A model generated the notes under the pieces. It saw only the letters and a program-made list of their open reading frames with translations. It was not told the DNA's origin and searched no databases. From Lutimonas saemankumensis (GTDB taxonomy: Bacteria > Bacteroidota > Bacteroidia > Flavobacteriales > Flavobacteriaceae): a DNA stretch of 64,000 nt. Shown here piece after piece: positions 15,847 through 45,013 of this stretch. The DNA is taken from NCBI RefSeq assembly GCF_020171465.1, contig NZ_JAIUZR010000003.1, positions 558,001 to 622,000 of the forward strand, read 5' to 3'. Positions within the stretch are counted from its first letter, which is position 1. Every line of letters starts with the position of its first letter. The translations under genes were made by a program, and so were the position numbers.

Positions 15847-17145
15847 TCAGTCTGACGTCAACAAAAAATTCTTCAATTCTGAATAGTCCGTCATGAATTG
15901 AGCAACCTTTGGCTTATCCATAACGCTCTTAATCTGCTCCGGAAAGGCTATTTTTTTATTGATAACAGGTTCCACAACATCAAGGAACTTAACAGGATGT
16001 GCCGTTTCAAGAAAAATTCCGGTTGAATCAGGGTTCGATTTCAGGTATTTCTTGAGGCCTAGATAACCCACTGCTCCGTGAGGATCCATGATATATCCTG
16101 TTTCCTCGTATACCTTGAGCATGGCAGCACGGGTTTGATCATCAGTAAACGAATAGGAGGAAAGGTTTTCTTTGATTAGCGCAAAGTCATTTTTATAGAT
16201 TTCTCTTATTCGAATAAAATTGCTTGGATCCCCTACATCCATGGCATTGGAAATGGTTGCTACCGAACGAAGCGGGATATATTCTCCTTTTTCCATAAAA
16301 TTAGGAACCACTTTATTGGCATTGGTCGATGCAACGAATTGCTGTACGGGCAGGCCAAGTTGCTGAGCCATGATTCCTGCACAGATATTTCCAAAATTTC
16401 CGCTGGGTGTGGAAAACACCAATGGTTTTGATCGGTCCTTAAGTTGTTTATACGCAAATGCAAAATAAAACATCTGGGGCAGCCACCTGGCCACATTGAT
16501 CGAGTTGGCTGAGGTTAATTGAATTTTATCTGTTATCTCCGCATCCAGGAAGGCCTCTTTAACCATGGCCTGACAATCGTCAAAGGTGCCGTCTACCTCA
16601 AGGGCCTTAATGTTCTGACCCAGGGTCGTGAGCTGCTTTTCCTGAACCTCACTTACTTTTCCACTCGGGTATAGGATAACCACATTGACTCCTTTTACAC
16701 CAAGAAACCCACTGGCAACAGCACCTCCCGTATCTCCGGAAGTGGCCACAAGAACGGTTACCTCATTGGATTGCTCTCGGTTGAAATAAGAAAGGCATCT
16801 TGCCATAAATCTACCTCCCACGTCCTTAAAGGCCATGGTTGGGCCATGGAATAGTTCAAGACTATAGACATCTTCTTCTACCTTTTCCAAAGGGAAATTG
16901 AAGCAAAGGGTGTCCTCAATGATATTTTTCAGCTCGGCCTCCGGAATTTCACCATCGATAAAGGGATTGATCATTTCAAAAGCCAATTCATTGGGTTCGT
17001 ACTGATCTATGTTTTCAAATACCTCTATAAGTTTGGCAGGTATGGTTTCAGGAAAATACAGGCCCTTGTCGGGGGCGATTCCTTTTATTACAGCTTCTTT
17101 AAAACCTACTTTTGGTGCCTTGCCATGTAAACTGAAATATTGCAT
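15847..17145 (-). CDS. thrC: Threonine synthase
   Basis: 432 residues. It converts O-phosphohomoserine to threonine with PLP. The PLP lysine is in GPTMAFKDVGG (K107); ATSGDTGGAVASGF is the phosphate-binding loop and SANSINVARWLPQ is a further conserved block. It is the last gene of the thr operon; its start overlaps the thrB stop by one base (17145), indicating translational coupling. Operon expression is probably set by the Thr-rich leader upstream of thrA. Confidence 0.96.
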   Translation of the reverse strand: MQYFSLHGKAPKVGFKEAVIKGIAPDKGLYFPETIPAKLIEVFENIDQYEPNELAFEMINPFIDGEIPEAELKNIIEDTLCFNFPLEKVEEDVYSLELFHGPTMAFKDVGGRFMARCLSYFNREQSNEVTVLVATSGDTGGAVASGFLGVKGVNVVILYPSGKVSEVQEKQLTTLGQNIKALEVDGTFDDCQAMVKEAFLDAEITDKIQLTSANSINVARWLPQMFYFAFAYKQLKDRSKPLVFSTPSGNFGNICAGIMAQQLGLPVQQFVASTNANKVVPNFMEKGEYIPLRSVATISNAMDVGDPSNFIRIREIYKNDFALIKENLSSYSFTDDQTRAAMLKVYEETGYIMDPHGAVGYLGLKKYLKSNPDSTGIFLETAHPVKFLDVVEPVINKKIAFPEQIKSVMDKPKVAQFMTDYSELKNFLLTSD

Positions 17146-18080
17146 TATTGTTTCTTTACTATTTTAACTCCCTCCACGTTTATTTTTGATGTGTAAATCT
17201 GAAAGGGAATTTTGGTTTTTTTATAAACTTCATCAATAGCAAGACTCACTTTATGAGCAACTTGCTTATTTTTACTAAAAGTAAATATTGAAGGGCCTGA
17301 TCCGGAAATTCCTCCACCAAGCGCGCCTGCTTTAACGGCATGTTTAATTACATTATCAAATTCCGGGATCAATTTTGATCGATGCGGTTCTACAATATAG
17401 TCGTTTAAAGATTCAGCAAACAAATGCGGGTCATTCGTATGAAGAGAATGAATCAAAGCTCCAACATTCGCCCATTGCTTTATGGCACTTTTTAGTTTTA
17501 CGGTCTGAGGCAAAATATCTCTTGAAACCGAAGTTTTGATTTCTATTTGCGGATGAATAATGGTAGCGTATAAGCCTTCAATGGAAGGAAGCTCTAAAAC
17601 TTTTATAGGATCATCAGACTTCACCAGGGTAAATCCCCCAAGAAGGGCAGGAGCAACATTATCAGCTATAGGAGCACCACAGGCCGCTCTTTCACCTTCA
17701 GCAGCATAAGGAATAAGTTGATGGCTCGAAAAAGGATTTCCAAGTAATTCATTTGCCGCAAACACTGCACCGGCCGCACTCGCAGCGCTGCTACCAACGC
17801 CGCTTCCCGGTTTAATATTTTTATAAATATCGATTTCAATACCAAAATCAGGTGCAACTTCCAGATCCTTCATCATCTGAATTACGGCAACACTGGCTAC
17901 ATTCTTTTCGGCTTCCAAGGGTAACTGCTCACCAATGATTTTCCCAATTCTGACTCCTGGCTCTTGCGTTTTACGGAGTACCATTTTGTCTCCAATGGAA
18001 TCGAGACAGCATCCAAGTACATCAAATCCACAGGAAACATTGGCAATGGTGGCCGGAGAAAATATTTCGATTTGTTTCAT
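17145..18080 (-). CDS. thrB: Homoserine kinase
   Basis: 311 residues from the ATG at 18080; an in-frame TTG at 18086 would add two residues. A GHMP kinase: SPATIANVSCGFDVLG at the N-terminus, the ATP-loop PGSGVGSSAASAAGAVFA and the C-terminal GGGISGSGPSIF. It phosphorylates homoserine for ThrC. It lies 8 bp after the thrA stop and overlaps thrC by one base, so the three genes form one tight operon. Confidence 0.96.
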   Translation of the reverse strand: MKQIEIFSPATIANVSCGFDVLGCCLDSIGDKMVLRKTQEPGVRIGKIIGEQLPLEAEKNVASVAVIQMMKDLEVAPDFGIEIDIYKNIKPGSGVGSSAASAAGAVFAANELLGNPFSSHQLIPYAAEGERAACGAPIADNVAPALLGGFTLVKSDDPIKVLELPSIEGLYATIIHPQIEIKTSVSRDILPQTVKLKSAIKQWANVGALIHSLHTNDPHLFAESLNDYIVEPHRSKLIPEFDNVIKHAVKAGALGGGISGSGPSIFTFSKNKQVAHKVSLAIDEVYKKTKIPFQIYTSKINVEGVKIVKKQ

Positions 18081-18088
18081 GCTCAATT

Positions 18089-20533
18089 TTATTTGTTCCC
18101 CGTTCTGATAATATCTCCAAAAATTCCTGAAGCGGTAACATCTGCGCCTGCTCCAGCACCTTTGATGATCAGTGGCTGATCCTTGTACCGGTTTGTGTAG
18201 AACAGGACGATATTATCCTTTCCATCCAAATTGTAAAAGGGATGTTCCTTCGGGATATGCTGAAGCCCTACTGAGGCTTTACCGTCTTTATAGCTGGCTA
18301 CATACTTTAATCGGCATTTTTCACTTTCGGCTGCTTCACGGAGCTTATTGAAATGGTCCGATTCCGTGATCAGGGTTTCCAGAAAATCCGGAACCGTATC
18401 GGCGTCAAGGGAAGATTGAGGAAGAAAAGATTCATTCTTAATGTCGTTCAGCTCGCTCTGTAAACCACTCTCTCTCATTAAAATAAGAATCTTTCTCATA
18501 ACATCCACGCCACTGAGGTCAATTCGGGGGTCCGGCTCGGTGTACCCTTCTTCTCCGGCTCGTTTTACTACTTCAGAAAACGGGGTTTCACCATTGAAAT
18601 GATTAAATACAAAATTCAGGCTTCCCGATAATACGGCCTGGATCTCAGTGATCTCATCCCCAGAAGCGATAAGGTTATTCAAAGTATCAATAATAGGCAG
18701 TCCTGCGCCCACATTGGTTTCGAACAAGAAGGGGGCATTATATTTTCTGGACAGGTATTTTAAGTGCTGGTAGTTGTCAAAGGCCGAAGAGCAGGCAATT
18801 TTATTGCAGGCCACAACGGCGATGCTATCTGAAAGGCAGTCCGCATATAAGTCGGGTACCCTGTCATTGGCTGTATTGTCAACAAATACACTGTTGCGTA
18901 AATTCAGGCCTTTCATTTTATCGATAAATCCTTCAAGATCCGCTTTTTCACCCTGTTGTTCCAGCTGATCTGCCCAATCCGACAACTCGATACCATCACT
19001 CCTGAAGAACATTTTTCTCGAATTACTTATGGCAACAACACGTAATTGCAAATGTTGTTTTTCTAAAAGGTAATCAGCCTGAAGCTTTATTTGCTCCAAT
19101 AGCTTTCCACCTACATTGCCCACCCCGACAATAAAAAGATTGATCTGTTTGATCTGATCTTCAAAAAAAGCAGCATGTAAGGTGTTCAAAGCTTTTTTGA
19201 CATCATTCTTGCTGATGACCGCCGAAATATTTTTTTCCGTTGACCCCTGGGCGATGGCTCGTATATTCACATTGTTTGCACCCAGTTCAGAGAACATTCT
19301 GCCGCTTATTCCCTGATGTGATTTCATATGATCCCCAACCAGGGCAATAATGGCCAGTTCTGTTTCGATAATCAGTGGATTAACCTTGTGCTGAATAATT
19401 TCAAACTCAAATTCCTGGTCCACTGATTTTTTGGCCAGATCACTTTCATCAGAATCAATGGCAATACAAATTGAATGTTCACTGGAGGCCTGCGTGATAA
19501 ATTTTACGTTAATTCCTTTTTTTGCCAGAGCTCCGAACAAGCGTTCTGAAATTCCGGGAACTCCGACCATTCCATTTCCTTCAAGCGTGAGTAACGCGAT
19601 ATCTTCAATATGGCTGATTCCTTTTACGGTTGATCCGGATACCAAAGACTTTTCTGCAATCAACGTGCCCTTATCCTTGGCGGACAACGTGTTCTTTATC
19701 AAAATTGGGATCCTTTTATCCAGAACGGGTTGAATAGTAGGGGGGTAGAGTACTTTGGCACCAAAATGAGAAAGTTCCATGGCTTCCTGATAGGATATTT
19801 CCTCAATCGGGTACGCTTGTCTTACCAACTTTGGATTAGCCGTATACATACCACTCACATCCGTCCAGATTTCCAAAATATTCGCTCCCGCGGCATTGGC
19901 GATAATGGCTGCCGTATAATCTGATCCACCCCTTCCAAGGGTAGTTGTTTCATTTGACTGATTTGAAGATATGAACCCGGGAAATAAAAAAACTTCTGCC
20001 GAATTACTGCCCAATGCATCTTTCAGGTTTTTACGAGTAAGTTCAAAATCAACTTCAGCATTCAAATAATTATCATCGGTTTTTATTACCTCACGGCTGT
20101 CAATTAATGTGGCATTTAATGCATTCTGCAACATAGCCTGATGGATAATGAAAGAAGACATAATTTCTCCAAGGCTTACAATTCTGGCCGAGGTTTTGTC
20201 GGAAAGGTCATTAAGCAGGGAAATACTATGCAGGATTTCCTTTAATTGATTCAGCTTTTTGGCAACTTCTGCTTTACAGTTTGTTTGGTTGTCATGCGGG
20301 AGAAGGTTTTCTATGGCCTCAAAATGCCTTTTCTCAATCTGATCTACGATTTTTTCAAACCTCAAATCATTTTTAAGGGCCAGATCAGAAGCCTCGATCA
20401 AAAGGTTTGTTACCCCCCCAAGTGCTGAAACCACTATGGCAGTCTGTTCTTTCTTTTCCTTAACTATCTGGATTACTCTTTTTATGTTCTCAGCGGATCC
20501 TACTGAAGTTCCACCGAATTTCGAAACTATCAT
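18089..20533 (-). CDS. thrA: Bifunctional aspartate kinase / homoserine dehydrogenase
   Basis: 814 residues. The N-terminal kinase domain has KFGGTSVGSAENIKR (4-18) and GRGGSDYTAA; a central ACT-type regulatory region (about 300-450; GVPGISERLFGALA, GISGRMFSELG) precedes the homoserine dehydrogenase domain with NAD(P) motif VGVGNVGGKLLEQI near 467, GAGLPIIDTLNNL and GSLNFVFNHF. It supplies the first and third steps from aspartate to threonine and, through the shared intermediate, lysine and methionine. It is the first gene of thrABC. A Thr-codon-rich leader ORF 108 bp upstream and likely allosteric threonine binding at the ACT region point to two-layer control. Confidence 0.96.
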   Translation of the reverse strand: MIVSKFGGTSVGSAENIKRVIQIVKEKKEQTAIVVSALGGVTNLLIEASDLALKNDLRFEKIVDQIEKRHFEAIENLLPHDNQTNCKAEVAKKLNQLKEILHSISLLNDLSDKTSARIVSLGEIMSSFIIHQAMLQNALNATLIDSREVIKTDDNYLNAEVDFELTRKNLKDALGSNSAEVFLFPGFISSNQSNETTTLGRGGSDYTAAIIANAAGANILEIWTDVSGMYTANPKLVRQAYPIEEISYQEAMELSHFGAKVLYPPTIQPVLDKRIPILIKNTLSAKDKGTLIAEKSLVSGSTVKGISHIEDIALLTLEGNGMVGVPGISERLFGALAKKGINVKFITQASSEHSICIAIDSDESDLAKKSVDQEFEFEIIQHKVNPLIIETELAIIALVGDHMKSHQGISGRMFSELGANNVNIRAIAQGSTEKNISAVISKNDVKKALNTLHAAFFEDQIKQINLFIVGVGNVGGKLLEQIKLQADYLLEKQHLQLRVVAISNSRKMFFRSDGIELSDWADQLEQQGEKADLEGFIDKMKGLNLRNSVFVDNTANDRVPDLYADCLSDSIAVVACNKIACSSAFDNYQHLKYLSRKYNAPFLFETNVGAGLPIIDTLNNLIASGDEITEIQAVLSGSLNFVFNHFNGETPFSEVVKRAGEEGYTEPDPRIDLSGVDVMRKILILMRESGLQSELNDIKNESFLPQSSLDADTVPDFLETLITESDHFNKLREAAESEKCRLKYVASYKDGKASVGLQHIPKEHPFYNLDGKDNIVLFYTNRYKDQPLIIKGAGAGADVTASGIFGDIIRTGNK

Positions 20534-20573: not shown

Positions 20574-20610
20574 AAAGATTCTCGACTTACTTCTTGTAAA
20601 CAGATTCTTT
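20574..20610 (-). promoter_or_regulatory. Hairpin in the thrA 5' leader
   Basis: On the minus strand an outer 9-bp stem (AAAGAATCT with AGAATCTTT, one A-A mismatch) encloses an inner stem GTTTAC/GTAAGT with loop AAGAA. It is 40 bp before the thrA ATG and is not followed by a U-run, so it is not a standard terminator. The arms also form a near direct repeat (AGAATCT..TTAC), allowing alternative pairings. Confidence 0.4.
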
Positions 20611-20631
20611 TTGGGACGTAGTAATATATGC

Positions 20632-20663
20632 AAAACAACCCCTAAAGGGTGTTCATAGTGAAC
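20632..20663 (-). promoter_or_regulatory. Candidate competing hairpins at the end of the thr leader ORF
   Basis: On the minus strand GTTCA-CTA-TGAAC (20651-20663) is a perfect 5-bp hairpin inside the leader ORF. The overlapping AAC.ACCC-TTTAG-GGGT.GTT hairpin (about 20635-20653), followed by a short T-rich tract, is terminator-like. They share the AAC segment, so only one can form fully. This is a possible attenuator switch, weaker than the his example. Confidence 0.35.
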
Positions 20664-20719
20664 GTAGCTGTTGTTGTAAGACAGCGAAGTGAAGACGTTA
20701 AGTTGACTATTTTTTGCAT
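20642..20719 (-). CDS. Putative threonine-operon leader peptide (25 aa, seven Thr)
   Basis: ATG at 20719-20717, stop TAG at 20644-20642. The 25 codons include seven Thr: ACG (8), ACA-ACA-ACA (15-17), ACG (19), ACT (21) and ACC (24). The second half reads LTTTATFTMNTL. It lies upstream of and co-directional with thrABC, starting eight bases after a TATATTTG -7 box. A Thr-rich leader before threonine genes is the hallmark of ribosome-mediated attenuation (E. coli thrL), though this sequence is unrelated in detail. Too short for routine gene calling. The peptide itself probably has no function beyond sensing threonyl-tRNA. Confidence 0.78.
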   Translation of the reverse strand: MQKIVNLTSSLRCLTTTATFTMNTL

Positions 20720-20726
20720 GATGAGG

Positions 20727-20734
20727 CAAATATA
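20727..20734 (-). promoter_or_regulatory. -7 box for the thr leader and thrABC
   Basis: Minus-strand TATATTTG, an exact TAnnTTTG, sits eight bases upstream of the leader-peptide ATG. No well-spaced TTG -33 is visible. The implied 5' UTR before the leader ORF is only a few bases, as for other short-leader genes in this window. Confidence 0.6.
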
Positions 20735-44956: not shown

Positions 44957-45013
44957 ATGAAAAGAATAGCTTTACATCACCATCATATTCATACTTGCAC
45001 TCAGGCGAGATGA
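44957..45013 (+). CDS. Histidine-operon leader peptide (18 aa)
   Basis: ATG at 44957, stop TGA at 45011-45013; the product MKRIALHHHHIHTCTQAR has five His in six consecutive codons (44975-44992). It starts just after a TACATTTG box, is co-directional with hisG 98 bp downstream, and is followed by a strong terminator. This is the classical arrangement of ribosome-mediated his attenuation known from enterobacteria, here in a flavobacterial setting. The peptide is a sensor of charged histidyl-tRNA, not a functional protein. Confidence 0.9.
   Translation: MKRIALHHHHIHTCTQAR

Follow-up and report, generated by a model that had tools for sequence, protein, structure and literature searches.

The window analysed here, a stretch of 64,000 nucleotides of Lutimonas saemankumensis, carries the threonine operon thrABC on its minus strand, preceded by a short open reading frame (ORF) that is rich in threonine codons. 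The features of the locus are as follows:

20727 to 20734, minus strand: sigma-A type -7 promoter box TATATTTG, assigned from the sequence (consensus TAnnTTTG, from the available text of PMC9723704)
20722, minus strand: predicted transcription start, giving a 5' UTR of about 3 nt by the box rule of Flavobacterium psychrophilum
20642 to 20719, minus strand: leader peptide ORF MQKIVNLTSSLRCLTTTATFTMNTL with its stop codon, supported by the sequence, by relatives and by a count of frames
20648 to 20677, minus strand: control codons, Thr 15, 16, 17, 19, 21 and 24 of the leader
20638 to 20650, minus strand: hairpin H1, ACCCTTTAGGGGT; the last Thr codon opens its 5' arm and the TAG lies in or at its loop
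20626 to 20630, minus strand: conserved CATAT, a candidate RNA polymerase pause region, 7 nt 3' of H1
20574 to 20610, minus strand: possible second hairpin H2, with no T-tract behind it (z -0.65, p 0.21 in the window)
18089 to 20533, minus strand: thrA, bifunctional aspartate kinase/homoserine dehydrogenase I
17145 to 18086, minus strand: thrB, homoserine kinase
15847 to 17145, minus strand: thrC, threonine synthase

The identity of thrA is given by its match to NF006959 (1046.5 bits, cut-off 726). An earlier note on this DNA had placed a Thr-rich leader behind a TATATTTG box and before thrABC, and this is what we find: the leader runs from the ATG at 20719 to the stop codon TAG at 20644 to 20642 and comprises 25 codons, seven of which (8, 15, 16, 17, 19, 21 and 24) encode threonine, codons 15 to 17 reading ACA ACA ACA. 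Such richness is, as had been supposed, improbable by chance: when the ATG-started frames of 15 to 30 codons are counted on either strand of the window, each nested start included, they number 463, and the thr leader alone has at least seven Thr. The locus thus offers a short ORF with runs of cognate codons 5' of its cognate operon, as in a classical attenuator. The statement that the leader contains no Ile codons was mistaken, codon 4 being ATA, although there is none in the last eight codons.

The promoter box occupies 20734 to 20727 and is followed by seven bases and then by the leader ATG, a placement suited to transcription of the ORF, as a classical attenuator would need, from a start site that is predicted. 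In F. psychrophilum the TAnnTTTG box occupies positions -12 to -5 (PMC9723704). If the same rule applies, the thr leader mRNA would be nearly leaderless, with a 5' UTR of about 3 nt, and this would be unusual because in F. psychrophilum the leaderless mRNAs account for no more than 5.5%, according to the available text of the same paper. A similar arrangement is seen in relatives. Among 109 sequences that carry the block described below, a TAnnTT(T/A)G box lies upstream in 88 and a strict TAnnTTTG in 81; the strict box is found 55 to 133 nt 5' of H1 in 79 (5.2 expected from shuffled sequences), and an in-frame start codon mostly follows 4 to 23 nt 3' of the box. The host group is not known to rely on Shine-Dalgarno sequences.

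The block shared by relatives consists of the last Thr codon within H1 (ACCC..GGGT), a spacer of about 10 nt and the motif (C/T)ATA(T/C), with the stop codon either in the H1 loop or a few codons later. The span originally proposed for the element, 20632 to 20734, takes in the box, the ORF and the hairpin, but ends before the conserved CATAT at 20630 to 20626. From the 109 block sequences, 55 representatives were drawn. CATAT lies at most 20 nt from H1 in 35 of these (3.8 expected from shuffled sequences), and (C/T)ATAT lies within the same distance in 46 (8.6 expected). The spacer between H1 and (C/T)ATA(T/C) measures 9 to 11 nt in 34 representatives and has another length in 14, the motif being missing in the remaining seven; T is the most frequent base 2 to 6 nt 5' of the motif (47 representatives). 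The window copy departs from the common pattern, with a spacer of 7 rather than 10 nt, a score of 38 bits and interrupted Thr codons (ACA GCT ACG TTC ACT ATG AAC ACC). It is by this spacing, 9 to 11 nt in most representatives and 7 nt in the window, that the motif is a pause candidate.

H1 is also kept with other letters, as ACTCCGC/GCGGAGT in L073 and as GATCCGC/GCGGATT in L204, and ACGGG/CCCGT replaces its letters in L248, L249, L251 and L274. CATAT lies 8 to 9 nt 3' of the changed hairpin in L204, L248 and L249, and was not found behind it in L251 and L274. On a model-fitted alignment, covariation in H1 amounts to one double-sided change in 254 cells; this count is weak because most lineages with changed letters are left out of that alignment, while six off-target hits behind thrA are held in it. 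A MAFFT alignment misaligned the hairpin and was excluded from later analysis.

The codons leading up to H1 are strongly biased. Codon 0 is by construction always Thr in the 55 representatives; upstream of it Thr and Ile together are found in 51, 47, 43 and 44 representatives at codons -1 to -4, in 34, 29, 33 and 22 at codons -5 to -8, and in 18 and 16 at codons -9 and -10. Thr and Ile codons are thus most frequent at the positions where stalling would bring the ribosome over H1, and H1 itself stands where a classical attenuator has its 1:2 hairpin, overlapping the control codons. With Ile present within the last eight codons in 41 of the 55 representatives, the idea that the leader senses threonine alone holds at most for the sub-lineage of the window.

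To place the element among thrA genes at large, the best 80 of 174 thrA relatives from a tblastn scan of genome contigs were kept. Thr-rich frames lie at most 400 nt 5' of thrA in many relatives (for example MTTQTRVAIAATTTTTTTTTTP in a Flavobacterium), and the leaders, either Thr-rich or Thr+Ile-rich, span several Bacteroidota families. The recurrence in relatives that the earlier note had proposed as a check is therefore observed, in Lutimonas, Flavobacterium, Mesonia, Tenacibaculum, Ferruginibacter and others; the hosts of named loci include Ginsengibacter as well as Ferruginibacter. In all, 246 upstream regions of thrA were chosen: the 80 relatives (79 loci and the window, L008 having been dropped as incomplete), 70 regions of an order set (of which 36 have a model hit, 28 have none within 600 nt, and 6 come from the 36 genomes of family f16) and 96 of a phylum set, picked by family from among the matches listed. 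Leader and block occur together in 93 of the 246, a count over chosen regions and not a prevalence, and in none of the reversed or shuffled regions; Thr-rich frames by themselves are found in 130 regions, versus 14 and 27 of the 246 reversed and shuffled ones, respectively.

Specificity for thr was assessed with a covariance model of the block, which finds one place in the genome of the window, at thrA (38 bits, E 0.005; 150 of 1978 first-pass candidates scored). A looser block pattern has five matches in this genome, one of them at thr, and two in a backward control. In the order, the model matched 44 of 246 genomes (a number equal to that of the upstream regions by coincidence), and 39 of the 45 matches lie 55 to 169 nt 5' of thrA on the same strand, a count that used 67 of 103 thrA places, the 36 places of f16 being left out. 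The six hits outside this distance rule are those in G181 (684 nt upstream), G017, G020, G023 and G035 and a second hit in G056. In the phylum, 46 of 395 genomes were matched, including eight of family f18 and 11 of family f38, and the block lies 5' of thrA in regions from both; f18 is taken as Chitinophagaceae, and genus g19 as Chryseobacterium. Both scans applied stricter filters and missed weak copies: a leader or block went without a hit in L091, L093, L100, L101, L105 and others.

The element was not seen in part of the phylum. No Thr leader was found in six f16 genomes (L118 to L123, about 600 kb) out of the 36 f16 genomes with thrA, as if thrA had been kept there and its regulation lost. 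Sixteen distant genomes (10 of f32 and 6 of other families) showed no block and at most five Thr in the best short frame, and seven Winogradskyella loci (L010, L012, L013, L025, L028, L044 and L079) have no Thr leader before thrA. In these Winogradskyella loci, thrA sits directly behind an ilvA-like end, recognised by eye. Weak opposite-strand hits of the block model were also noted a few hundred nt behind thrA in L007, L016, L018, L020, L023 and L024 (5719-6069, minus strand); they presumably lie in the thrB coding sequence and are probably due to chance. In G181 (L092, G181:C43:22280-23342), Thr leader and block lie 684 nt 5' of thrA, with another ORF between that we take to resemble GxxExxY proteins. 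This distance and the intervening ORF argue for control of transcription over control of thrA translation.

Cognate leaders had been suspected to be a general habit of the lineage, and two further cases in this genome agree with that view: a his leader MKRIALHHHHIHTCTQAR at 44957 to 45013 (plus strand) of the window, 5' of hisG, and a trp leader MRNNTIHTWWWSLQNKNL 5' of trpE elsewhere in the genome (L293, C4). Like the thr leader, both are short ORFs that follow a TAnnTTTG box and contain a run of their cognate residue. Unlike it, both end in a strong hairpin: behind the his leader lies a textbook terminator, GAACCCGTTTGAGCATTCAGGCGGGTTTTTTT (to 45075, plus strand; -15.9 kcal/mol with a T-tract), and the trp leader is followed by GGCTTGTCTTCACGACAGGCC and nine T (hairpin of -13.4 kcal/mol). 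A second design also exists for threonine itself. At L011, L032, L108, L110, L112 to L116 and L237 to L241, a Thr- or Thr+Ile-rich leader precedes thrA, as in the window, but in 14 of 14 loci it ends in an intrinsic terminator with a T-tract, at -14.0 to -22.5 kcal/mol, these loci having been picked after terminators had been seen there, and none shows an H1/CATAT block. L209 has both an H1-type hairpin and a strong downstream terminator, whose 5' part looks, by eye, able to pair with the 3' arm of H1; it may stand between the two designs. A further aspartate kinase-homoserine dehydrogenase is encoded in the genome of the window (L002 493-3912, C5), in a single frame of 1139 aa behind an alpha/beta-hydrolase domain that is perhaps a fused homoserine acyltransferase.

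Terminators at the thr leader were sought with a filter that accepts hairpins with 5 or more pairs and an energy of -7 kcal/mol or lower, provided that 5 of the 6 nt immediately behind them are T. With the segment begun 6 nt upstream of the last Thr codon, 6 of the 93 leader and block regions pass: in five the passing hairpin is H1 itself (L138, L139, L144, L148 and L217), and in one (L258) the terminator is separate from H1, while seven further regions fall between -7 and -5 kcal/mol. The changed hairpin of L204 passes as well. In the window, no terminator was found at -7 or even -3 kcal/mol, H1 included, and nothing passes the filter in the first 400 nt of thrA. A looser scan (five T preceded, within 45 nt, by a fold of -7 kcal/mol or better) flags 25 of the 36 block regions L131 to L166, the window not being among those flagged. 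Pairing of the 3' arm of H1 with the 5' arm of the second hairpin (2:3) is no better between cognate than between swapped species (p 0.38, 34 representatives), in a test whose positive control is circular, H2 having been chosen as the best hairpin. Two elements of a classical attenuator, a 2:3 antiterminator exclusive with 3:4 and a 3:4 intrinsic terminator with its T-tract, are therefore not seen. What can be recognised at the locus is the sensing half of a classical attenuator. Its terminating half, as a separate structure, cannot: there is one separate terminator in 93 regions, none in the window and no signal of 2:3 pairing.

Two further structures were considered and set aside. H2 as a conserved hairpin reaches p < 0.05 in 13 of 55 representatives (mean z -0.85), is not significant in the window, and is left out of the core claim. 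By eye, the GGGGT of H1 seemed a good partner for a later TCC, but this pairing breaks down in L248, whose 3' arm reads CCCGT while TCCC stays. Rfam models gave no match in the window at gathering score, including those of Thr_leader (which we take to be RF00506), T-box and riboswitches, so that the suggested comparison with Thr_leader came out negative; the 11 matches to the leader up to E 10 include no leader family. On seven loci at gathering score, only Flavo-1 was matched, outside the leader. One Flavo-1 RNA match lies near a Tenacibaculum thr locus (L034 8068-8150; Rfam RF01705, 47.3 bits).

The leader, H1, its spacing to CATAT, its conservation and its specificity for thr, together with the lack of a recognisable separate terminator, come directly from the computation. 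We propose, with a probability of about 0.6, that they form a cis-acting threonine leader in which a stalled ribosome keeps H1 open, and a formed H1 holds the polymerase. Transcription would start some 3 nt 5' of the leader ATG, and the ribosome would therefore load almost at the 5' end. With sufficient Thr-tRNA, the ribosome would reach the stop codon at H1 and leave, H1 would form, and RNA polymerase would be held about 10 nt downstream, near CATAT; there the transcript would end or fail, either with H1 acting as a weak factor-assisted terminator or through Rho. When Thr-tRNA is short, the ribosome would stall on the Thr codons that form or flank the 5' arm of H1, H1 could not form, and the polymerase would proceed into thrABC. 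In the classical scheme the polymerase pauses behind the 1:2 hairpin until the ribosome melts it (PMC1183508, in the available text), and hairpin-dependent pauses of E. coli have been scored with a hairpin-to-pause spacer of 10 nt (PMC9291695), a geometry that H1 and CATAT, about 10 nt apart, would fit. The available text of the latter paper also reports that the thrL1 pause is lengthened by NusA and the thrL2 pause unaffected, and that breaking the thrL1 hairpin hardly changes the pause (PMC9291695). Against the mechanism stand the last two of these E. coli results, the departures of the window copy from the common pattern, the low covariation count in H1 and a simple footprint estimate, by which stalling at codons 15 to 17 would leave H1 free.

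How the transcript would end is where the main competitors lie. H1 and its T-rich spacer may amount to a weak intrinsic terminator, assisted by factors of the NusA/NusG type and blocked by the stalled ribosome, which is also one of the two endings within the reading proposed above. As an explanation of its own we regard it as possible, if unlikely. The five regions in which H1 passes the filter, the changed hairpin of L204 and the prevalence of T before (C/T)ATA(T/C) speak for it, as does the yxjB leader of Bacillus subtilis, which combines a NusA-dependent terminator with NusG pausing (PMC6851288, in the available text). However, H1 mostly has 4 to 6 base pairs, the T-tract is interrupted, H1 fails the filter in 88 of 93 regions and in the window even at -3 kcal/mol, and the his and trp terminators of the same genome are far stronger. 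Rho-dependent attenuation, in which the ribosome would leave at H1 and Rho would load on the G-poor RNA 3' of it during the polymerase pause, seems to us rather doubtful. The genome has a Rho gene, and the first 60 nt 3' of H1 are richer in C than in G in 53 of 55 representatives, compared with 35 of 54 for a control stretch; moreover, leader stalling with Rho termination inside the gene has been proposed for E. coli topAI (PMC12121999, in the available text). Yet in the window these 60 nt have 9 C and 10 G, and a ribosome stalled upstream would not obviously cover the candidate loading site.

A complete classical attenuator (leader, 1:2 hairpin, 2:3 antiterminator and 3:4 intrinsic terminator), as at his and trp of the same genome, is improbable: the position of H1, the strong terminators of the 14 loci (chosen, as said, for having them), the double arrangement of L209 and the 25 regions flagged by the looser scan are compatible with it, but the separate terminator of L258 is the only one in 93 regions, with seven more regions between -7 and -5 kcal/mol, the window and the first 400 nt of thrA have none, and 2:3 pairing is no better in cognate than in swapped species. 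We consider it very improbable that RNA structure near the start of thrA controls its translation. A possible H2 does lie 34 to 45 nt before thrA in many relatives, but its distance to the ATG varies, up to 229 nt, it is weak and not significant in the window, and the G181 leader is separated from thrA by 684 nt and an ORF. That the leader is a functionless Thr-rich frame arisen by chance is hardly credible; such frames alone do turn up in the reversed and shuffled regions, but leader and block recur together in 93 of the 246 real regions, mostly behind a promoter box, and in none of these controls.

The nearest known system is the thrL attenuator of E. coli, with which the thr leader shares a Thr-rich ORF before the same operon, a hairpin overlapping the control codons and, as a candidate by spacing, a pause behind that hairpin. 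It differs in having no Rfam match, no visible separate terminator or antiterminator, no Ile in the last eight codons of the window copy and a predicted nearly leaderless mRNA. With no separate terminator found in the window and no Rfam family matched at gathering score, it does not appear to be an attenuator of the E. coli type, in which the terminator is a structure of its own. One paper, whose main text has no occurrence of 'threonine' or 'thrA', suggests in a general way that amino-acid operons of F. psychrophilum are subject to leader-peptide attenuation (PMC9723704), and short ORFs reminiscent of leader peptides have been noted in Bacteroides thetaiotaomicron (PMC7366714, in the available text). 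Among the matches listed there was no paper on a thr leader in Bacteroidota, and an earlier prediction in comparative attenuator surveys (Vitreschak 2004; Lopatovskaya 2010) is possible. We file the element as a variant of ribosome-mediated attenuation with no earlier paper among the matches listed. In its textbook form, ribosome-mediated attenuation requires a terminator that competes with another helix. We tentatively suggest, with the odds somewhat against us, that several Bacteroidota families have in common a class of Thr (often Thr+Ile) attenuators that would work with no antiterminator and no separate intrinsic terminator. In such a class the hairpin would be formed by the control codons themselves, the stalled ribosome would keep it open, and the hairpin with CATAT at a fixed distance would stop the polymerase via pausing together with Rho or a different factor.

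In a phylum whose promoters and translation starts are distinctive, a conserved Thr leader with the sensing half and a pause-like spacing, and with no recognisable separate terminator, would permit a direct test of whether ribosome position alone can control the polymerase at a hairpin. The three leaders, his, trp and thr, representing two designs within one genome, would make this a clean comparison.
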